Source of the DNA: an uncultured delta proteobacterium
GTDB taxonomy: Bacteria > Myxococcota > Myxococcia > Myxococcales > 40CM-4-68-19
Reading direction: 5' to 3'
Assembly (NCBI GenBank): GCA_903911145.1
Contig: CAIWCD010000015.1
Span: 1-64,000, forward strand
DNA length: 64,000 nt
The notes under the pieces are model-generated. The model was not told where the DNA came from, ran no database searches, and saw only the letters and a list, made by a program, of their open reading frames with translations. A program made the translations under genes and the position numbers. Positions 2,565-17,010 of the stretch are shown here, one piece after another; position 1 is the first letter of the stretch, and each line of letters opens with the position of its first letter.

Positions 2565-4952
2565 CTACCCCGGCGAGGCGCTGGCGTCCAGAACAGCGGC
2601 AATGCGATTGAGTCCGCGATTCGCCTCGTCGTAGCGCCCGTCGGAGTAGGACAGCGTGACGTCGCGAAAGAGCGTCTCGACCTCCTTGCGCTGCACATCG
2701 CTGAGTTTGGCAGATGCGCGCTGGCTCTGCAGGCGTCGCATTTTCTGCTCGACGAGTCGCTGGTCGACCTGCAGCTGCTTGGCCGCACGAGCGAGTTCCA
2801 CGAGCAGGTCACCAGCGCGCGCAAAATCGCCTTGTCTGCGCGCGGCCCAGATATCGGCGTTGAGCGGCTGATCCTCAATGGGAAGGTCGCCAATCAGCAC
2901 GCCTCGCGCAGCGAGTTCGTCGAGGAGTTTCTTGTGGCGGGACTCGACGGACGCGGCCTGTGGAACATCGCGGGCCGAGCTCGCCTGCTGCTGAGACGCG
3001 GGTGCTTGCGCCGTCTTCAGATCGGAAGACTTCGCGGCGAACGCGCGCTCGGAGTCGGCCTGCGCGGCCTCCCGTGCAGCGAGCGCTTTTTCTCGGCGAG
3101 CCAGGTCCGTGTCGCGCTCGGCAAGACGGGATTCGCGCATCGCGATCGATGCCTCGCGCGCAGCGAGAGCGCTCGGGTCGGCCAAACTGGGCGCGTCGAT
3201 CGCCGCCTTCTTCGCATCGACTTCACTCTTCTTCGCAATCACCGTCTGCACGCTCGCGACGACCTCGGTCTGCTTCTCGCGCGCCTTGCGAATCTCCTCG
3301 TCGAGCCGGCGGCGCTGCTCCGCGTCAGCGGCCCCGACGCTCTTGACCAGATCACCGATTTGCGCGTCGAGCTGCTCTTTCTGCGCGTGCAGCTCCGCCT
3401 CGCGATCCTGCAGCGCCTTCTCCTGCAGCTCAAGCTCGCGTCGATCGCCGCGCACGGTGATGGTCAGCTCGTCGGCCGCGCCCGACTGATCACGCTCGCA
3501 GCCGAGCGGCATCGCCAGACAGACGAGCGCGAGCAAAGCCGCAGAAGCTTTGAGCGCGCGCACTTCCCAGAGTTGAACCAGCTCTCGCTTTCCCTTGAGC
3601 TTCACCGGCTCGCGCGCGACGACTTCGACGTGCTCCGCGACGCGCTCGTAGATCGATTGAGACACCAGAACCTCGCCTGCTTTGGCTTGCGACTCGAGCC
3701 GCTGGGCCGTGTTGATCGCATCGCCGATCACTGTGTACTCGAGCCGCTGGGCCGCGCCCAGATTGCCCGCGAGCGCTTCGCCGCTGTTGATGCCGATGCC
3801 GAACTCGACCACGGGAAGTCCGCGCGCGATGCGCTGTTGGGAGAGCGCGTGGGCGTTCGCCTGGATCTCGAGAGCAGCCCGCACCGCAGAGAGTTCAGGC
3901 TTCACCGCCGCGCGTGGCGCGCCCCAGAGGCAGAGCGCGGCATCTCCGATGAACTTGTTCACCGTCCCTCCGCGGCGCAAGACGGCCTCGACCATCACCT
4001 GGAAATAGTCGTTGAGCAGCGCGACCATCTCCTGCGGCGTGAGCAACTCGGAGAGGCTGGTGAAGCCACGCACGTCGAGGAAGAGCGCAGTGACGAGCCG
4101 GGTCTCGCCACGCAGCGAGAGGTCGTCGGACTCAGAGAGGATGCGCTCGGCGACATCTCCGGAGACATAACGGTCGAGCGTTCCGCGCAGACGTTCGCGC
4201 TCGCGCAGACCCTGGAGCATCGAGTTGAATGCACGCGCCAGGTCTCCGATTTCGTCGCGTGCGTGCGACTGCACCTCGAGCGCGGCGTCGAACTCGCCCT
4301 TCTGTGTGCGGCCCATCGCTCCCGCGAGCGCCGTGAGCGGGAGCGAGAGTTGGCGGGCCATCAGCGCGGCGCAAAACAGCTCGAAGGCCAGCAGCAGCAC
4401 GAGCAGCACGAGCTCGCGCAGGAGGACAGCTCGGGCCTCGGCGTCGATGGAGTTGGTCGACAGGCCGAGGAGCATCCGACCGACCGGCGCGCTGGCGCCC
4501 TCGAGTTTGAGCGAGACGGCGAGTTGCTGCACGCCGTCGTGGTGCAGCGCAAGCTGTTGCAGACCGTGCAGAGAGTCAGTCCGGTAGAGGGCGAGCAAGC
4601 GCGGCGACAGCCGACCGAGGAGCTTCGGATTGACCACCGAGGCCGACTCGAGGAGCGCTCCTTTCTCGTCGTAGAGCAGGGCGAAAACCAGCTCCTGCCC
4701 CGGCGTGCCCGACGAGTTGATGACCAGATCCTGCATGACATCGGAGCGGAACGAGACCCCCTCGGCCGAGAGCCGCACGATCATCGGAGAGAGCGGCCGC
4801 ACTCGCTCGAGAGCGAGGTGACGCTGCGTCGCAAGTTTCGCCTTCCACGGCACGTAGACCGTGACGATGGCGAACGCCGCGACGGCCACCATCAGCAGCG
4901 CGGCCGTCAGCAGAGCGATCTTCCTGCGAAGCGTGAATCGAGGTCGGGGCAT
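2565..4952 (-). CDS. Membrane class III adenylate/guanylate cyclase fused to a lipoprotein-like coiled coil
   Basis: A 795-residue protein predicted to make cyclic nucleotide. Order of parts: membrane span 12-34; extracytoplasmic region to about 175; second span about 177-198; HAMP linker about 200-250; class III cyclase domain about 280-465; a third hydrophobic stretch 466-484; then a Glu/Lys/Arg/Ala-rich coiled coil from about 500 to 660 and a helical tail. Catalytic features are present: metal-binding Asp in FLDVRGFTS (293) and IGDA (337), Lys in VNKFIGD, Thr in EYTVIGD (407), and Asn/Arg in NTAQR. Lys plus Thr favours ATP over GTP. The third hydrophobic stretch ends in MPLGC, a good lipobox, so the C-terminal third looks like a complete lipoprotein read in frame with the cyclase. 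Either a real fusion or a lost stop codon would explain this. Confidence 0.85.
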   Translation of the reverse strand: MPRPRFTLRRKIALLTAALLMVAVAAFAIVTVYVPWKAKLATQRHLALERVRPLSPMIVRLSAEGVSFRSDVMQDLVINSSGTPGQELVFALLYDEKGALLESASVVNPKLLGRLSPRLLALYRTDSLHGLQQLALHHDGVQQLAVSLKLEGASAPVGRMLLGLSTNSIDAEARAVLLRELVLLVLLLAFELFCAALMARQLSLPLTALAGAMGRTQKGEFDAALEVQSHARDEIGDLARAFNSMLQGLRERERLRGTLDRYVSGDVAERILSESDDLSLRGETRLVTALFLDVRGFTSLSELLTPQEMVALLNDYFQVMVEAVLRRGGTVNKFIGDAALCLWGAPRAAVKPELSAVRAALEIQANAHALSQQRIARGLPVVEFGIGINSGEALAGNLGAAQRLEYTVIGDAINTAQRLESQAKAGEVLVSQSIYERVAEHVEVVAREPVKLKGKRELVQLWEVRALKASAALLALVCLAMPLGCERDQSGAADELTITVRGDRRELELQEKALQDREAELHAQKEQLDAQIGDLVKSVGAADAEQRRRLDEEIRKAREKQTEVVASVQTVIAKKSEVDAKKAAIDAPSLADPSALAAREASIAMRESRLAERDTDLARREKALAAREAAQADSERAFAAKSSDLKTAQAPASQQQASSARDVPQAASVESRHKKLLDELAARGVLIGDLPIEDQPLNADIWAARRQGDFARAGDLLVELARAAKQLQVDQRLVEQKMRRLQSQRASAKLSDVQRKEVETLFRDVTLSYSDGRYDEANRGLNRIAAVLDASASPG

Positions 4953-7125: not shown

Positions 7126-7287
7126 CTACGCCTCGGCGCGGGCTTCGGCCTTCTTCGCCGGAGCCTTCTTCGCGGCCGACTTGGTGCCGACCGCCTTGGC
7201 CGCGGCCTTCTGGCGCTTCACCCGCTGCTTGTGCTGCTTGCGGCGGCGCATGACGAGACGGACGTGCTTGCTCTTGGAACGGGCCAT
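7126..7287 (-). CDS. Small, very basic Lys/Arg/Ala-rich protein
   Basis: A 53-residue protein with a strong GAGGAG ribosome-binding site 7 bases before the ATG. It starts MARSKSKHVRLVMRRRKQHK and ends in Ala/Lys repeats of the AAKKAPAKKA type, like histone H1 tails. It contains no acidic residues before the last few positions. Such proteins usually bind nucleic acid or the ribosome. It lies about 100 bases downstream of the P1 peptidase gene on the same strand. No family name can be given from sequence alone. Confidence 0.8.
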   Translation of the reverse strand: MARSKSKHVRLVMRRRKQHKQRVKRQKAAAKAVGTKSAAKKAPAKKAEARAEA

Positions 7288-7389: not shown

Positions 7390-8640
7390 TTATTTCTCGC
7401 TCGCCCCGGAAGAAGGGGGCGCGGCGAGAGATGTCGGAGCAGTTTCTGCGTGCGCGCCCGAGTGCGTCTCCACCGCGCTGGGAGCGGATGCGCGCACGTT
7501 CGAGTCGAGATCCCAGCGATCGAGCAACTCCTTCACTTCCGCGAGCGGCAGCGCCGGCGAGTTCCCATTCGGCCCGTCGAGGTCGCGCGCCATCGTCAGC
7601 GAATTGAGGATCGCCTCTTCGGTCGCTTCGATCGCCGCCGCGTAGAGCGGATCGAGCCGCGGGTCGAGGAGCATCTTCATCCGGTAGATCATCTTGTCGG
7701 TCACACGCGGCACCGTGTTGGCCGTGCTGAACGCGAGGATGATCTCTCCCGAACCGTGCGCGGCGATGCTGCCTGCGCGGCCGATGCCGAGCGCGACCCG
7801 CTTGGAGATGCGACCGAGTTGGTGCGTCGAGAGCGGCGCGTCGGTGGCGACGACGGCGATGATGCTGCCGTAGTTCAGCTTGCGCTTGGGCATCGCGCGA
7901 TAGCGCGCCTCAAGCACGGTCCCGACAGGAAAGCCGGCCACGCGCAGGTCGCGCATATGGCCAAAGTTGTTCATCACCAGGACGCCGATGGTGTAGCCGC
8001 CGAACTCCTGCGGCAGCTTGCGGCTCGAGGTGCCGATGCCGCTCTTGAAGTCGCAGCAGATCATTCCGGTGCCGCCGCCGACCGAGCCCTCCGCGACCGG
8101 TCCGCTGCTTGCCGTGCGCAATGCTTCAAAGACGTTCTCGGCCTTGACGTGTCGGCCCGCGGAATCGTTGAGCCAGGAGTCGTCGCACTCGCCGACGAGT
8201 GGAATCAGCACGTCGTGTTCGCCGCCGATGCCCGGATAGGTCTCGATCATCCACTGCACGGCCGCGTCGCTGACCTGTCCGACAGAGAGCGTGTTGGTGA
8301 GGAAGATCGGAGTTTCGATCAGGCCCCACTCCATCATCTGCGTCAGGCCCGATACCTCGCCCGCGCCGTTGAGGACGAAGCCGCCGCCAACGATTCGCTG
8401 CGCGAAGATGTTCTTCTCGTTGCAGAGGATCGCGGTGACGCCAGTGCGCACCGGCCCCTTGCCCCGCTTGAGCGGGCCCTTTCCGCGGATGATCGTCGAG
8501 TGGCCGACCTGCACGCCGGCCACGTCGGTGATCGCGTTCCATCGGCCCGTCGCAAATCTCCCAAGAGCGGTGCTCGTGGGGCGAAAGAGTTCGCGCGCAC
8601 GCACGCGCTTCTCGACGGGCCTGGTGTCCGTGGCATCCAT
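7390..8640 (-). CDS. P1/DmpA family (S58) aminopeptidase
   Basis: A 416-residue member of the self-processing Ntn-fold peptidases that includes DmpA (L-aminopeptidase/D-Ala-amidase) and the beta-peptidyl aminopeptidases. Family blocks are clear: ITDVAGVQVGHSTI near 37-50, GGGFVLNGAGEVSG near 85-98, VGGGTGM near 187 and NNFGHMRDLRV near 224. Cleavage into two chains is expected at Gly258-Ser259 in NYGSIIAVVATDAPL, freeing Ser259 as the nucleophile. There is no signal peptide. The last 45 residues are Ala/Ser/Pro-rich and not part of the fold. The gene begins 17 bases after the double ATP-grasp gene, with GAGGCAGG as ribosome-binding site, so the two are probably co-expressed. The substrate is unknown; D-Ala or beta-amino peptides fit the family. 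Confidence 0.93.
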   Translation of the reverse strand: MDATDTRPVEKRVRARELFRPTSTALGRFATGRWNAITDVAGVQVGHSTIIRGKGPLKRGKGPVRTGVTAILCNEKNIFAQRIVGGGFVLNGAGEVSGLTQMMEWGLIETPIFLTNTLSVGQVSDAAVQWMIETYPGIGGEHDVLIPLVGECDDSWLNDSAGRHVKAENVFEALRTASSGPVAEGSVGGGTGMICCDFKSGIGTSSRKLPQEFGGYTIGVLVMNNFGHMRDLRVAGFPVGTVLEARYRAMPKRKLNYGSIIAVVATDAPLSTHQLGRISKRVALGIGRAGSIAAHGSGEIILAFSTANTVPRVTDKMIYRMKMLLDPRLDPLYAAAIEATEEAILNSLTMARDLDGPNGNSPALPLAEVKELLDRWDLDSNVRASAPSAVETHSGAHAETAPTSLAAPPSSGASEK

Positions 8641-8657
8641 GAATTTCCTGCCTCAGG

Positions 8658-10886
8658 CTACGAGGGCAGGCCCTCGGACTGCGCGGAAAGCGTTGCTGGG
8701 CGCGGATCTGCGCTTGCGGCGCCGTTGCCGCTCCCGTTCACCGCAGGCGTCGGGGTCACGCTCGCGATGCTCGAGATTCCGCCGTTCGGTGCGCTGGCCG
8801 TCGCGGCCGCGCCCGGCACCTGCACGACCACCGCAGGCGCCCTGCCCTGCTCCCGGCGCTCGCGCTCGCGCTCCTTGTAACGACGGATCGCGCCGCTGAG
8901 GATTTCGCTGATCAGCCCGTTGTACGAGATGCCAGCGGCGTCGCTGATCATCACCAGATCGCTCCAGCCAGGCGTCAGTCCGGGGAGAGGATTGCACTCG
9001 AGAAAGTAGACCTTCCCCGACTCGTCCATGCGGAAGTCGACGCGGGCCACGTCGCGGCAGCCGAGCGCGATGAAGCAGTCGCGCGCCGCCTTCTCAAGGG
9101 CCTTCTGCTGTGCGGGCTCGACCTTCGCGGGCACGTCGTAGCGAATCTTCTTCGACCAATCCTGCTTGTGCTCGAACGAGTAGACCGGGTGGATGTCGCC
9201 CTTGTCGAGAAAGACGACCTCCATCGGCGGGAGAACCTTGGGGCGACGCTCGCCGAGCAGGCCGACGGTAAATTCGCGTCCACGAATATAGTCTTCGATG
9301 AGCGCAGGCTGATCGTACTTGGCGATCATCTCGCGCGCCGCCTCGCGCAACTCCGATTCGTTCTCACAGACGCTGGTTGGATGCACGCCCTTGCTCGAGC
9401 CTTCGGCGACGGGCTTGACGATGAGCGGAAAGCGCACGTCGCGCGGCAGGCGCTCCTTGCCTGTCGTCATCGTGAAGAAGTTGGGCGTGAGAATTCCGTT
9501 CTGCCGGACGATGCGCTTGGCGAGCGCCTTGTCGAGCGCGATCGACATCGTCGCCGGGTCGGACCCCGAGTAGGGAATGTCGAGAAGCTCGAGCAGCGCA
9601 GGCACCTGGCTCTCGCGATTGCGGCCCTTGATTCCCTCGGCCATGTTGAAGACGAGATCGACCGGCGTCGTCGCAAGCACAGTGGGAAGCTCGGGTGTCG
9701 CCTCGAGATCGACCACCTCGTGACCTGCACTTGCGATCGCCTCGCGAATCGCCTGCAGCGTCTGCGGCGAGTCGTACTCGGCCTCATCGTCCTTCGAGCC
9801 GTCGATCTGCGGCTTGATGCGCTTGACGTTGAAGGTGAAGCCCACGCGCAGCGGGCCCGCGCGGCGCGGCGGCCGGCTCTTCGCCTTCTTCGGATCGTTG
9901 ATCCCCCAGCGAGCCACCGCGCTCTCGATCACCTTCGCGAGCAAGCCGTCCGTGTGGATCCCCTCGAGCGCGGCGGCCGCGTAGATCCCAGCGCCCGGCT
10001 CCAGGCTCGGCAGCGCGTTGACCTCGATGAAGTAGACCTGGCCGTCCTCGCCGACGCGAAAATCGATGCGTCCAAGATCGCGGCAGCCGAGCGCCTTGTA
10101 GGCCGCGCGCGCCATCTCCTGCGCCCGCTTGAGAATGTGCTCGTCGAACTGCGCCGGGCAGCGCACCGAGACCGCGTTCTCGTGCTCCGACTTCAGGTCG
10201 TAGTCGTAGATCCTGTACTTGCGCTTCTTCATCTCCGCTTCGTCGAAGATGTACTCGGTCGGCGTCAGCACGCCGTCGCGCCCGTTCTCGACCCGCTCGA
10301 GAAACGCGACGGTCAGATCGGTGCCGGGGATGTACTCCTCCACGATCACTCCTGCGGGGAATCGCGCGAGCTGCTTCTCCACAAGCGCGCGCAGCTTGCC
10401 GCGCTCCTCGCAGATCGAGTCTTGCGTGATGCCTTTCGAGCTGCCTTCGAAGTTCGGCTTCACCATGATCGGGAAGCGCCAGCCATCGAGCTTCAAGTCG
10501 GCGAGCGACTCGATGAACTGGCCCTTGGGCGAAATGACGCCGTACTCGCGCAGCATCAGCTTCGTAAGCGCCTTATCGAGCGTGACGGCAAGGACCCACG
10601 CGTCGCTGCCCGTGTAGGGGAAGCCGAGTTCGTCGAAGAGCGCCGGATAGAACGCCTCGCGGAAGCGGCCGCGGCGACCCTCGGCGATGTTGAAGATCAG
10701 ATCGGGCGCGAAGGCTTCGAGGCGCGCGGCAGTGCGGCTCGCCGGGCCGGAGACCTCGACGCGCTCGACCCGATGGCCGAGGCGTTCGAGCGCGGCGGTG
10801 AGCGCGTCGATCGTCTCGCGCGAGTCGAACTCGGCCTCATCTTCAGAGTCGGAGAGGCGCAGATTGTGGGTCAATGCGAGACGCAT
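8658..10886 (-). CDS. Two D-Ala-D-Ala-ligase-like ATP-grasp modules in one protein
   Basis: A 742-residue protein made of two complete ATP-grasp ligase modules, about residues 1-335 and 350-650, and a 90-residue Ala/Pro/Ser-rich tail. Each module has its own N-terminal lobe (FDSRETIDAL / YDSPQTLQAI), a FN(I/M)AEG loop, a GSD...LDKAL block, an ATP-binding VKP..EGSSKG stretch, and a metal-binding end (YFIEVNALPSLEP / YFLECNPLPGLTP). Both look intact. The family joins D-alanines or makes D-Ala-D-lactate, and related enzymes make other small peptides. The stop of the RDD gene overlaps its start by 16 bases and the P1 peptidase follows by 17. Normal Ddl is about 310-370 residues with one module, so this is an internal duplication. 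It is probably not the housekeeping Ddl. Confidence 0.88.
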   Translation of the reverse strand: MRLALTHNLRLSDSEDEAEFDSRETIDALTAALERLGHRVERVEVSGPASRTAARLEAFAPDLIFNIAEGRRGRFREAFYPALFDELGFPYTGSDAWVLAVTLDKALTKLMLREYGVISPKGQFIESLADLKLDGWRFPIMVKPNFEGSSKGITQDSICEERGKLRALVEKQLARFPAGVIVEEYIPGTDLTVAFLERVENGRDGVLTPTEYIFDEAEMKKRKYRIYDYDLKSEHENAVSVRCPAQFDEHILKRAQEMARAAYKALGCRDLGRIDFRVGEDGQVYFIEVNALPSLEPGAGIYAAAALEGIHTDGLLAKVIESAVARWGINDPKKAKSRPPRRAGPLRVGFTFNVKRIKPQIDGSKDDEAEYDSPQTLQAIREAIASAGHEVVDLEATPELPTVLATTPVDLVFNMAEGIKGRNRESQVPALLELLDIPYSGSDPATMSIALDKALAKRIVRQNGILTPNFFTMTTGKERLPRDVRFPLIVKPVAEGSSKGVHPTSVCENESELREAAREMIAKYDQPALIEDYIRGREFTVGLLGERRPKVLPPMEVVFLDKGDIHPVYSFEHKQDWSKKIRYDVPAKVEPAQQKALEKAARDCFIALGCRDVARVDFRMDESGKVYFLECNPLPGLTPGWSDLVMISDAAGISYNGLISEILSGAIRRYKERERERREQGRAPAVVVQVPGAAATASAPNGGISSIASVTPTPAVNGSGNGAASADPRPATLSAQSEGLPS

Positions 10887-11500
10887 GCAGGATCCTCGGA
10901 CGGGTGACCGGAGAGCGAATCAGGAGAGAGGTGCGCGCGCGGCATGCGCGGAACTGCGCCGAGGGCAGAGGCGGCGCGCGGGCGAAGGATGGACGTCGCG
11001 GCGGGAAGGCCGAGAGGGATCGAGGCGTCGATCACCTGGGTGCCCGCGAGAAGATCGCCCAGGCGGCGACGGCCGAGATCTCGCGTGAGAGGCGAGAGCG
11101 CAACGCCGGCCTCGAGGGCTGCAACACCGATGACCGCAGCGGCGGCCCAGCAGAGCGCGGCGAAAGATCCGGCGGCGACCGGAAGCACGGCGATCGCGAA
11201 GAGTGCGTTGCGGCGCATCGACGCGGTGATGCCACCGGGCTGGCGCTTGTGGAGCACGACGACGCGCAACCCTGCGAGCCGCTTGCCGAGCGAACGCCCC
11301 GGTCCGAAGAGCCGATCCGCACAGAGCACCAGCGCCGCAACCGTCAGCGCGGCAGCAACCGGGCGCCGCATCGGCCCCAGCAGCACGAAGGGAGCCGCGA
11401 CTGCGAGCGCATCAAGGATGCGGGCGAGCAGGCGCGGCCAGAGCGCGGCCGGGGGATAGTCGTTCGGCCGCTCGGGCGGACCTGGAGGTTCGGAAAACAC
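10871..11500 (-). CDS. RDD-family membrane protein
   Basis: A 209-residue protein with an N-terminal RDD-type block (PRLLARILDAL) and three to four hydrophobic segments (about 27-45, 48-62, 97-115, 117-135). The conserved GKRLAGLRVV motif follows the first pair. The C-terminal 50 residues are soluble and Pro/Ser-rich. The RDD family is poorly understood; some members are thought to be ion or solute transporters. The gene starts with GTG 2 bases after hemB and overlaps the ATP-grasp gene by 16 bases, so all three should be co-transcribed. Confidence 0.82.
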   Translation of the reverse strand: MFSEPPGPPERPNDYPPAALWPRLLARILDALAVAAPFVLLGPMRRPVAAALTVAALVLCADRLFGPGRSLGKRLAGLRVVVLHKRQPGGITASMRRNALFAIAVLPVAAGSFAALCWAAAAVIGVAALEAGVALSPLTRDLGRRRLGDLLAGTQVIDASIPLGLPAATSILRPRAASALGAVPRMPRAHLSPDSLSGHPSEDPACVSH

Positions 11501-11501
11501 G

Positions 11502-12491
11502 TCAAGCGCCCAGCCAGCGGGCGGCGTCGAGCGCGCTGTACGTAATGATCAGATCTGCTCCCGCGCGCCGCATTGACGTGAGCAACTCAAGACAGACCCG
11601 CTGCTCGTCGATCCATCCGTTCTGCGCCGCAGCCTTGAGCATCGAGTATTCGCCGCTGACGTTGTACGCCGCGAGCGGCTTGTCGCTGAGACGACGAACC
11701 TCCGCGATGATGTCGAGGTACGAGAGCGCGGGTTTGACCATCAGCATGTCCGCGCCCTCCTCGATGTCGAGAAGCGCTTCGCGCCGAGCCTCGCGCACAT
11801 TTGCCGGATCCATCTGGTAGCCACGCCGATCGCCCTCTTTCGGAGTGCTCTGCGCTGCTTCGCGAAACGGTCCATAGAAGCCGCTCGCGTACTTCACGGC
11901 GTAGCTCATGATCGGCGTGTCGCTCAAGCCGTTGCCGTCGAGGCCCGCGCGCAGGGCAGCGATGCGTCCATCCATCATGTCGCTCGGCGCGATGATGTCC
12001 GCGCCACTCTTCGCGCAGGCCACAGCAGCACGTGCGAGCAGCGGCAGCGTCGCGTCGTTCGCGACCGAGAGATGACCGCGCGCATCGCGCTCCAGCGGAC
12101 CACAGTGACCGTGATCAGTATATTCGCATAAGCAGATATCCGCGACGAGGACCAGTTCGGGAACGGCGTCCTTGATCGCACGCAGAGCCGTGCAGACAGG
12201 GCCCGCCTCGTCCCACGCCCCAGAGCCCTGGGGATCCTTCGCATCAGGGATCCCGAAGAGGATGAGTGAAGGAATGCCCAGCCCATGCGCGACCCGCGCC
12301 TCCTCGACGGCGACGTCGACCGAGAGGTTCGCCACGCCGGGCATCGAGCTGATCGGGCGCCGGATACCGCGCCCCGGCGTCACGAACAGCGGATAGATGA
12401 AGTCGCCCGGCTCGAGCGCGGTCTCCCGCACCATTCGACGAAGCGTTTCACTCTTGCGCAGCCGACGCGGACGCTCAACAGGATAGGCCAT
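11502..12491 (-). CDS. hemB: Delta-aminolevulinic acid dehydratase (porphobilinogen synthase)
   Basis: A 329-residue enzyme that joins two aminolevulinate molecules to porphobilinogen in haem synthesis. The active-site lysines are Lys200 ([15 protein letters not shown]) and Lys253 ([12 protein letters not shown]). Cys120, Cys122 and Cys130 in [12 protein letters not shown] form the catalytic zinc site, so this is a zinc-type HemB. Length is normal. It sits between the beta-barrel gene and the RDD gene on the same strand. The zinc-site codons form an AT-rich patch that includes a TTA leucine, rare in this GC-rich DNA. Confidence 0.97.
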
Positions 12492-14041: not shown

Positions 14042-15274
14042 TCAGTAGAGGAGCGCGGCGCTTCTCCGAGCGACGAAGGCCTCGCGCTCGCCTGCCCACG
14101 CCGAGCAGAGTGAATCGACAGACGCGCCCTCTTCGACGCTCTTGCGAAACGCGGCCGAGCCGGTCAGCAGATCGATCGCAGGGATGGTGTCGACGAACTC
14201 GTACTTCTCCGTCCGCCAGGCAAATCGCTCAGGCGCCTGCGCGCGTGCGTGCACGATGCAGGCGACGCCGAGCCGGACCGCATCGACTTCGCGCGGAGCA
14301 TCGATGTGAATCTGCACGCCGCCGCAGCGAACCTTCGCGTGCTTGTCCCACGTCGGCGTGAACGAGCAGGAGCGGAAGCGAACGCCAGGCAGCTTCTCAT
14401 CGTCGAGCGAATCGGCGAGCGCGTGCCCGTCCAGCCAGGGCGCACCGAACAACTCGAACGGCCGCGTCGTGCCGCGCCCTTCGCTCAGGTTCGTGCCTTC
14501 GAGGAGACACATGCCGGGATAGATGAGCGCCGTGTCGGGCGTCGGCATGTTCGGCGAGGGCATCACCCACGGCAGTCCCGTGTCGCGAAAGTGCATGCCG
14601 CGATTCCAACCGAGCATCGGAACCACAGCGAGCTCGCAACCGATGTTGAAGCCTCCGCGCTCCGTCGGACGCTGCAGCATCGCCGCCATCTCCCCGGCAG
14701 TCAGGCCGTGGCGAGCCGACATCGGCCAGAGGCCAACGAACGACTCGAAGCCCGGATGAACGATGCCGCCCTCAACCGCGAGGCCACCGATGGGATTTGG
14801 ACGATCGAGCACAACGAACTTGAGGTCATGCCTGGCCGCCGCCTGCATGCACAGCCCCATCGTCGCCAGGTAGGTGTAGTAGCGGCTGCCGACGTCCTGG
14901 ATGTCGAAGACGAGCGCGTCGAGGCCGCGCAGTTGCTCCTCGGTGGGCGTGAGCGACGCGAAATCTTTTCCGTAGAGCGAGTGTGCGGGAAGGCCTGTGC
15001 GCTCATCGACGGCCGTGTCGATCTCCTCGAGGTACTGCACGTCACCGCGCACGCCATGCTCGGGGCCAAAGAGAGAGACGAGGTCGACGCCCATCTCGCG
15101 CGCAGGGCCGTGCAGGAGGTCCGCGAGGTGGTTGAGTGCGGGGTCGAGGCTCGTCGGGTTGAGGATCGCGCCGACGCGCAAGCCCTTGAGCAGTGCGCAT
15201 TCGCTGCGCAGCAGCACTTCGACTCCGAGGATGGTGCGCGAGAATTTCTGCGGCTGGCCGACGGGCGCGCTCAC
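14042..15274 (-). CDS. namZ: DUF1343 / NamZ-type exo-beta-N-acetylmuramidase
   Basis: A 410-residue protein of the DUF1343 family, whose characterised member NamZ removes terminal N-acetylmuramic acid from peptidoglycan fragments (GH171). Family signatures: LFGPEHGVRGD near 74-84, DIQDVGSRYYTY near 131-142, DRPNPIGG near 161-168, and PSPNMPT / GTNLSEGRGTTRPFE in the middle. No signal peptide is seen, so it may act on recycled cytoplasmic muropeptides, or be exported by another route. The GTG start overlaps the stop of the upstream TPR gene as GTGA, showing tight coupling. Confidence 0.9.
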   Translation of the reverse strand: MSAPVGQPQKFSRTILGVEVLLRSECALLKGLRVGAILNPTSLDPALNHLADLLHGPAREMGVDLVSLFGPEHGVRGDVQYLEEIDTAVDERTGLPAHSLYGKDFASLTPTEEQLRGLDALVFDIQDVGSRYYTYLATMGLCMQAAARHDLKFVVLDRPNPIGGLAVEGGIVHPGFESFVGLWPMSARHGLTAGEMAAMLQRPTERGGFNIGCELAVVPMLGWNRGMHFRDTGLPWVMPSPNMPTPDTALIYPGMCLLEGTNLSEGRGTTRPFELFGAPWLDGHALADSLDDEKLPGVRFRSCSFTPTWDKHAKVRCGGVQIHIDAPREVDAVRLGVACIVHARAQAPERFAWRTEKYEFVDTIPAIDLLTGSAAFRKSVEEGASVDSLCSAWAGEREAFVARRSAALLY

Positions 15275-17010
15275 AGGCCACCCACGCCGGTGACGCGCGC
15301 TGGAGCCGCGACAGGCTTCTCCTTGCTCTTGCGCCGCGGCTGTTCCACGACCTCGACCATGTGCTTGCGGGGCGGCGCGAGCTCGTACTTGAGGGTGAGC
15401 GACTTCTTCGCTTTCGGCCACTCTCCTTCGCGCAGCGCCGCCACCAACTGCTGCGTCAACTCTGGCTCGTGGAGCGTGTCCTCGGTGACCTCAACGGCAT
15501 CGCTCGAGCCTGCACTGCTGATCTTCAACACCACCGTGATCTTCCCGGCGAGTTCGGGCTTGAGCGCACGCCGCTGCTCGTAGAGCTCGGTCAGATGGCG
15601 AGAGCTGACGTTGTAGATTCCATCCGGATTCGCCGCGACCAGCGGGCGCGCAGGGAGCTGCAGGCGTGAGCGCAATGCGGCCAGCTCTGCTCGCGCACGC
15701 TCGACGGCACCCTTCGCTTCTGGATGCGTCGAACCCGCCGCCGCGGCCTTGAGTTCATCGAGCTGCCCGAGCAGATCGCTCGCTTCGCCTCTGCGCGTCG
15801 CGAGCGTGAGGTGAGCGCCGGCGTCCTTCGCATCGAAGCCAAGCAGCGCCCGGGCAAACTCTTCGATACCCGCTCCATCGTGAGCCGCGACGCGCAGATT
15901 GAACAGGCGCACGACGATGTTTCGATCGCGCGGATCGATCCGGCGCCAGCGTCGGAGTGCCTGCTCCTCACCCGCAGTATCCTTGAGAGCGCGCTTGCAG
16001 GCCGCGAGCCCGCTCCAGGTGTCCTTGGTGGCATCACCACGCCCGACCGCTGCCTCGTATGCGACGACGGCACCCGCGTAGTTGCCGCGTGCACGCCGAA
16101 GCGCGGCCAGTTTGCGCAGCGTCGGCACATCGCGCGGATTCATCTGCGAGAGCGCCTCAACGGCCTCCAGCGCGGCCACCGTGTCGCCTGACGCTTCTGC
16201 AGCAGCGGCGAGCCACAGCCGGGCTTCGTAGAGATCGGCCGACGCATTGAGTGCGCGCTGGTAGGCCTGTCGCAACTCGTCCTTGTTCGCACCCGCGTCA
16301 TCGGCCAGTTGAGCGAGCAGCAGCAACGCCCGCGCGTCGTTCGCATCTCGAGCAAGCACCTGCTCGGCATCGGCCTTCGCCGCAGTCGCATCACCGAAGA
16401 TCCGCTCGCTGACAGCGCGCTCGACCAGCGCGATCGGATGCTGCGGCGCGATCTTGAGCGCGCGAGCAAAACTCTTCTCTGCCTGATCGCGGATGTGCCA
16501 GCGCACATAGACGTGGCCCATACCGATGTCGCCCCACGGCTCCTTCGGGAACTCGAGCGAGAGCTGCTTGAAGAGCGGCCAGGCGATGTCGTCGCTCGGC
16601 TCGGACAGCGCAGCGACAAACCGCTCGAGAGACGTCGCTCCAGGCAGAGCCTTCTCCGGTGGGCCGCCTCGCCGCGCAACTGCGAATGCGCGCAGCATCG
16701 CGTCCTTCAACGGCTGCAGCGGATCGGGGGGGGCCAAGCTGGCAGCTGGCGCGGACACCGCCGGAATCGCTGGCGGCGCGGCGCTGGGAGAAGGAGGAGC
16801 AGGCGCGTCGGCGTCATTCGGCGCATCGGACTCCTGCGCAGCTGGCGCAGAAGCGGCCGCGTCGACAGGATCGACGGCAAGCAGGAGAAGAAGCGCGCTG
16901 GTCAGAGGGGCGAGCACGGCGAGAACATCGCGCGAAAGGGTCTGCTTGACCAGCAGGGAAACGCGCTGTCGAGCGGAGACAATCGCGCAACAAACATTCT
17001 CTCTTCCCAA
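15271..17010 (-). CDS. Exported TPR protein with a TonB-like C-terminal domain
   Basis: A 579-residue protein. A hydrophobic segment at about 30-50 (LAPLTSALLLLLAV) serves as signal peptide or anchor, followed by an Ala/Pro-rich linker. TPR helix pairs occupy about 120-430 (for example AEKSFARALKIAPQHP). Residues 480-550 look like the AgmX/TonB C-terminal type (ELAGKITVVLKI...GEWPKAKKSLTLKYEL). The tail is Lys/Arg-rich. The assigned start is a TTG with weak support; a GTG at 16917, just before the hydrophobic segment, is also possible. It overlaps namZ by 4 bases. Such proteins in myxobacteria are often envelope or motility accessory proteins; the role here is unknown. Confidence 0.75.
   Translation of the reverse strand: MGRENVCCAIVSARQRVSLLVKQTLSRDVLAVLAPLTSALLLLLAVDPVDAAASAPAAQESDAPNDADAPAPPSPSAAPPAIPAVSAPAASLAPPDPLQPLKDAMLRAFAVARRGGPPEKALPGATSLERFVAALSEPSDDIAWPLFKQLSLEFPKEPWGDIGMGHVYVRWHIRDQAEKSFARALKIAPQHPIALVERAVSERIFGDATAAKADAEQVLARDANDARALLLLAQLADDAGANKDELRQAYQRALNASADLYEARLWLAAAAEASGDTVAALEAVEALSQMNPRDVPTLRKLAALRRARGNYAGAVVAYEAAVGRGDATKDTWSGLAACKRALKDTAGEEQALRRWRRIDPRDRNIVVRLFNLRVAAHDGAGIEEFARALLGFDAKDAGAHLTLATRRGEASDLLGQLDELKAAAAGSTHPEAKGAVERARAELAALRSRLQLPARPLVAANPDGIYNVSSRHLTELYEQRRALKPELAGKITVVLKISSAGSSDAVEVTEDTLHEPELTQQLVAALREGEWPKAKKSLTLKYELAPPRKHMVEVVEQPRRKSKEKPVAAPARVTGVGGL

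Follow-up and report, generated by a model that had tools for sequence, protein, structure and literature searches.

A tandem Ddl-fold ATP-grasp amidoligase and an S58-family peptidase: a gene pair conserved across the Myxococcota and a candidate small-peptide pathway

A stretch of 64,000 nucleotides from an uncultured member of the Myxococcales (contig CAIWCD010000015.1; 'the window' in what follows) carries on its minus strand two adjacent genes, one for a ligase and one for a peptidase, which together raise the question of whether the making and the processing of a peptide are joined here in a single pathway. The first gene (8658-10886) encodes a tandem Ddl-fold ATP-grasp amidoligase of 742 amino acids ('LIG'), and the second (7390-8640) a peptidase of 416 amino acids belonging to the S58 (DmpA/BapA-type) family ('PEP'), as identified by Pfam domain, alignment and fold. 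An earlier note on this DNA had placed a DmpA-type peptidase 17 bases after the ligase, and the coordinates, the strand and the gap (8641..8657) all proved exact. Upstream lie genes for an RDD-family membrane protein (10871..11500, minus strand, overlapping LIG by 16 nt) and for HemB (11502..12491, minus strand), which are neighbours of LIG only within the Myxococcia. The same run of minus-strand genes includes one for the exo-N-acetylmuramidase NamZ (14042-15421). On that strand were also observed a 53-residue, Lys/Arg-rich open reading frame (7126-7287) between PEP and a zinc-ribbon gene, which has no Pfam match and looks like a small RNA-binding or ribosomal protein, and a gene (2565-4952) encoding a HAMP domain and an adenylate/guanylate cyclase catalytic domain, followed by a long coiled-coil-like tail.

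In a Pfam search, the Dala_Dala_lig_C domain (PF07478) covers two stretches of LIG (E=2.1e-71), accompanied by a weak TTL match (E=2.5e-7). Residue alignment to E. coli DdlB assigns residues 1-340 to module 1 (9867..10886, minus strand) and residues 344-680 to module 2 (8847..9857, minus strand); the remainder (8658..8846, minus strand) comprises an unconserved C-terminal tail, modelled at low confidence, and the stop codon. The AlphaFold model has a mean pLDDT of 86.5, and its second module superposes on Ddl structures with a Z score of 34.5 over 297 residues; with a pTM of 0.51, the model leaves the relative orientation of the two modules unsettled. A total of 69 distinct full-length, double-module orthologues (49-83% identity) could be gathered and LIG is matched in 134 of 195 Myxococcota genomes, so that the double module is neither an assembly artefact nor a chance fusion.

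Conservation was read from an alignment of those 69 orthologues with E. coli DdlB as the reference. Nine DdlB residues (K97, K144, E180, E187, K215, R255, D257, E270 and N272) correspond to K105, K143, E183, D190, K232, R273, D275, E288 and N290 in module 1, and to K453, K491, E531, E538, K574, R615, D617, E630 and N632, which are conserved, in module 2. The equivalents of K97, K144, E180, K215, D257 and N272 are present in both modules of every orthologue; that of E187 is Asp in module 1 and Glu in module 2, while those of R255 and E270 are found in 67 and 68 of the 69 first modules, respectively, and in all of the second. Both modules therefore look active as ATP-grasp ligases, and the earlier description of two complete, apparently active modules is borne out at this level, the ATP- and Mg-binding residues being kept in essentially all 69 orthologues. 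Loss of catalytic residues from one module, which had been named as evidence to the contrary, was looked for in the alignment and was not seen.

Beyond its fold and its ATP and Mg residues, LIG shares with DdlB an equivalent of the first-substrate residue Glu15, which is retained in most cases. It differs, in contrast, both in its tandem architecture and on the acceptor side: the equivalent of Tyr216 is absent from both modules across the 69 orthologues, that of Ser281 is gone from module 1 in 62 of 69 (but is retained in module 2, as S642, in all), and Leu282 is replaced by Asp (D643) in module 2 in all 69. Judged from these changes, neither module is predicted to preserve the D-Ala pocket. 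In a tree of modules, LIG modules 1 and 2 form one clade each and are mutual sisters, with a 100/100 branch separating them from true Ddl, and a single fusion event would be the simplest reading of the tandem protein. A single-module relative that is close to module 2 occurs in one genome (G165), with no PEP alongside. The source genome carries a separate Ddl on another contig (C24). Additional families of Ddl-like ATP-grasp genes with an NPNP-type motif (G000:C31 116005-116934, L020, and L014-L019) were seen in these genomes, again outside the true Ddl clade. The possibility that LIG is itself a true Ddl is rejected on its separate clade, its incomplete D-Ala pocket and the separate Ddl in the genome, and D-Ala-D-Ala is an unlikely product.

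The ligase family has a history in the literature. LIG is very probably orthologous to M. xanthus MXAN_4097, as judged from the description of that protein (tandem PF07478 modules and a hemB cluster) and not from its sequence. The passages on this gene in a 2022 study (PMC9108774) describe 'two-tandem' DDL C-terminal domains and the gene order hemB-sglS-4098-4097, state that MXAN_4097 is not the primary ddl of M. xanthus, and report an insertion mutant with unaffected growth, morphology and S-motility. This absence of a growth defect, together with the clades, the pocket losses and the separate Ddl described above, leaves a reading of the ligase as specific for D-Ala-D-Ala unsupported. The family name 'MXAN_4097-like amidoligase' was in use by 2018, in an article whose relevant section has its authors proposing a role in peptidoglycan modification for their own Nostoc gene (PMC5987646). 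Tandem PF07478 modules and a hemB operon context are thus common to LIG and this family, whereas the passages on the family in these two papers mention no S58 partner. The earlier note had known of no described system of this kind, which does not hold for the ligase, already named by 2018 (PMC5987646) and disrupted in 2022 (PMC9108774). On the pairing with an S58 peptidase, a literature search found no paper; the likeliest earlier source, Iyer et al. 2009, lay outside that search. That article is reportedly the origin of the family name, and is said to describe many amidoligase-peptidase neighbourhoods.

PEP consists of one full Peptidase_S58 domain (PF03576, E=5.3e-114). Among solved structures, those of PH0078, a Burkholderia beta-aminopeptidase, BapA and DmpA come closest. 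Superposition of PEP on PH0078, BapA and DmpA gives Z scores of 47-51, and it shares with them its fold, a nucleophilic Ser after Gly, an Asn in the oxyanion region and 37-47% identity. DmpA Ser250 is matched in PEP by Ser259 (codon 7864..7866, minus strand), which is predicted to be the nucleophile and to mark the point of self-cleavage (G258-S259), and DmpA Asn218 by Asn225; both PEP residues are invariant in 28 orthologues. Unlike DmpA, which has Tyr146 at the corresponding position, PEP has Asp153, within an invariant ECDDS motif, and on account of this replacement its specificity probably differs from that of DmpA. To our knowledge, the natural substrates of S58 peptidases are mostly unknown.

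The conserved co-occurrence and linkage of the two genes, which the earlier note had proposed as a check, was examined in 195 Myxococcota genomes. PEP, at its own cut-off, is likewise matched in 134 of these; by listed orthologues, 127 genomes have both genes, 7 have only LIG, 3 have only PEP and 58 have neither (P about 1e-37, by a statistic that ignores phylogeny). Three of the LIG-only cases (G002, G106 and G185) look like contig ends. In all 111 pairs that share a contig, PEP lies downstream of LIG on the same strand; the distance is no more than 300 nt in 60 pairs, 0.3-2 kb in 11, 2-10 kb in 24 and 10-150 kb in 16 (maximum 141 kb). Joint transcription is therefore not required, since the spacing exceeds 300 nt in 51 of the 111 pairs, and 2 kb in 40 of these. 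Most of the widely spaced pairs belong to one family (f6), where the distances would fit with the two genes having been moved apart by later insertions. Where PEP stands apart from LIG (L059, L062, L064, L068, L069, L075 and others), a TAGTGT/TAAGYC-like hexamer is seen about 7-8 nt before its start codon, which suggests a promoter of its own and a leaderless mRNA. In other classes of Myxococcota every neighbour has changed and the pair has been retained, and start-stop overlaps of 4 nt occur in eight loci, across groups with replaced neighbours.

Genomes that lack both genes include several genera of the same order and fall in four families (f2, f6, f8 and f9); nearly all of them retain NamZ, used as a control gene, so that the absences are not only a matter of poor assembly. 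LIG and PEP are a real gene pair, conserved phylum-wide. Relatives outside the Myxococcota were sampled through plasmids, and a scan of genome contigs with patterns from one sequence listed loci that, judged by their titles, are from Myxococcota. Several other associations were considered and set aside. The neighbours hemB and sglS could have tied the pair to haem synthesis or to motility, but they are restricted to the Myxococcia, and MXAN_4097 is dispensable for S-motility in the passages cited (PMC9108774); no PHROGs or PADLOC match was found that would mark a phage or defence gene; and NamZ, which is present in 180 of the 195 genomes and usually unlinked to the pair, is not a linked partner.

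In one environmental clade of Myxococcota, the gene after PEP encodes an ATP-grasp enzyme of the prokaryotic glutathione synthetase (GSH-S) family (PF02955, 102 bits; L042:8424-9482). Its orthologues, at 64-100% identity, are found in 11 examined genomes (G199-G203 and G205-G210), in most cases no further than about 300 nt from PEP, which in G202 is broken in the assembly used. Most of these 11 genomes have a second copy elsewhere (about 48% identity). In a twelfth (G197), a copy with 46% identity lies 1.6 kb past PEP; the gene was not found in the source genome. A third peptide-bond-forming enzyme adjoining the pair supports a peptide pathway.

We regard it as an even prospect that LIG and PEP serve one small-molecule peptide pathway, in which the tandem ligase forms two amide bonds and PEP processes the same peptide. 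Each LIG module, with ATP and Mg bound, would phosphorylate an amino acid or a short peptide at its carboxylate, which would then be open to attack by the amine of a second substrate. As the acceptor pockets differ between the modules, two different amide bonds would most likely be made in succession (A+B, then AB+C). Self-cleavage of PEP at G258-S259 would yield an alpha and a beta chain, and the enzyme would act as an N-terminal aminopeptidase on the peptide made by LIG, for turnover, trimming, recycling or acyl transfer, and the GSH-S-type enzyme of the other clade would add a further ligation. The basis for this pathway lies in the fold, the catalytic residues, the separate clades, the co-occurrence and the gene order, all of which are observed; we infer the ligase activity, the order of ligation, the shared substrate and the direction of PEP action. 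The earlier suggestion of a dedicated peptide pathway thus appears plausible, given two apparently active modules, the conserved linkage to PEP and the GSH-S-type ligase; the note's further ideas, that the two enzymes are a maker and a breaker and that the modules perform successive ligations, are still inferred.

Against such a pathway stand a complete genome (G161) that keeps LIG and has a short-chain-dehydrogenase-like gene (named by eye) in the place of PEP, a genome (G102) that has PEP without LIG, the 51 pairs that lie more than 300 nt apart, and the unaffected growth, morphology and S-motility reported for the MXAN_4097 insertion mutant (PMC9108774). The survival of LIG without PEP in G161, the large spacings in family f6 and the loss of both genes mostly from small genomes could mean that each enzyme works alone and that the linkage is synteny handed down by descent, with both genes lost together where genomes are small; we consider this rather unlikely, in view of the retention of the pair across classes despite replaced neighbours, with overlapping start and stop codons, and of the third ligase that adjoins it. 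A role in the cell wall, with a D-amino-acid dipeptide variant as the precursor that LIG would make or edit and that PEP, as a possible D-aminopeptidase, would recycle, could draw on the Ddl fold, on the nearby gene for NamZ (a muramidase of peptidoglycan recycling), on the title of entry 1b65, which describes DmpA as an L-aminopeptidase and D-Ala esterase/amidase, and on the proposal made for Nostoc in the section cited (PMC5987646). The module tree and pocket residues, however, split LIG from Ddl, the source genome has its own Ddl, NamZ is near-universal and usually elsewhere, and disruption of MXAN_4097 is reported, in the passages cited, to cause no defect in growth or shape (PMC9108774), so that this role must be called unlikely.

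It would be more surprising still if LIG added an amino-acid tag to a protein or larger peptide, for removal by PEP. ATP-grasp enzymes do include tagging ligases, LIG has its weak TTL match, and 'writer-eraser' pairs are typically conserved together; but the fold matches of LIG are Ddl enzymes with small substrates, the S58 enzymes of known structure use small peptides and amides as substrates, and no conserved target gene is found in the neighbourhood of the pair.

For the small-peptide pathway, the residue at position 643 and a plasmid-borne relative provide two weak leads to the substrate. Ddl has a hydrophobic residue at this site, which we take to lie next to the second substrate, and the strictly conserved Asp643 could face a basic or polar group. 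Distant, single-module relatives (about 30-36% identity), found on the Thioflavicoccus plasmid pTHIMO01 and on rhizobial plasmids, likewise lie outside the true Ddl clade. The relative on pTHIMO01 has genes of diaminopropionate, diaminobutyrate and KamA type around it: at this locus (L120), genes for a diaminobutyrate transaminase, SbnA, an SbnB-like protein and the Ddl-like ATP-grasp enzyme are arranged as in an operon, with KamA on the opposite strand, and the set looks like a diamino-acid peptide cluster. No S58 gene was seen beside the single-module enzymes in the annotated plasmid regions inspected.

It may tentatively be proposed that a tandem amidoligase serves to make a non-ribosomal small peptide in most of the Myxococcota around Myxococcus and in scattered members of other classes. 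The peptide would have two amide bonds, would probably not be D-Ala-D-Ala, might contain a basic or diamino acid that faces Asp643, and would be processed by the S58 peptidase and, in another clade, extended by a third ligase. The finding corrects the 'D-alanine--D-alanine ligase' label that NCBIfam would automatically give to LIG, and could provide S58 peptidases with a defined physiological partner. The retention of the pair across a phylum points to an overlooked metabolite, for which M. xanthus, already known to manage without the ligase, offers a tractable strain.
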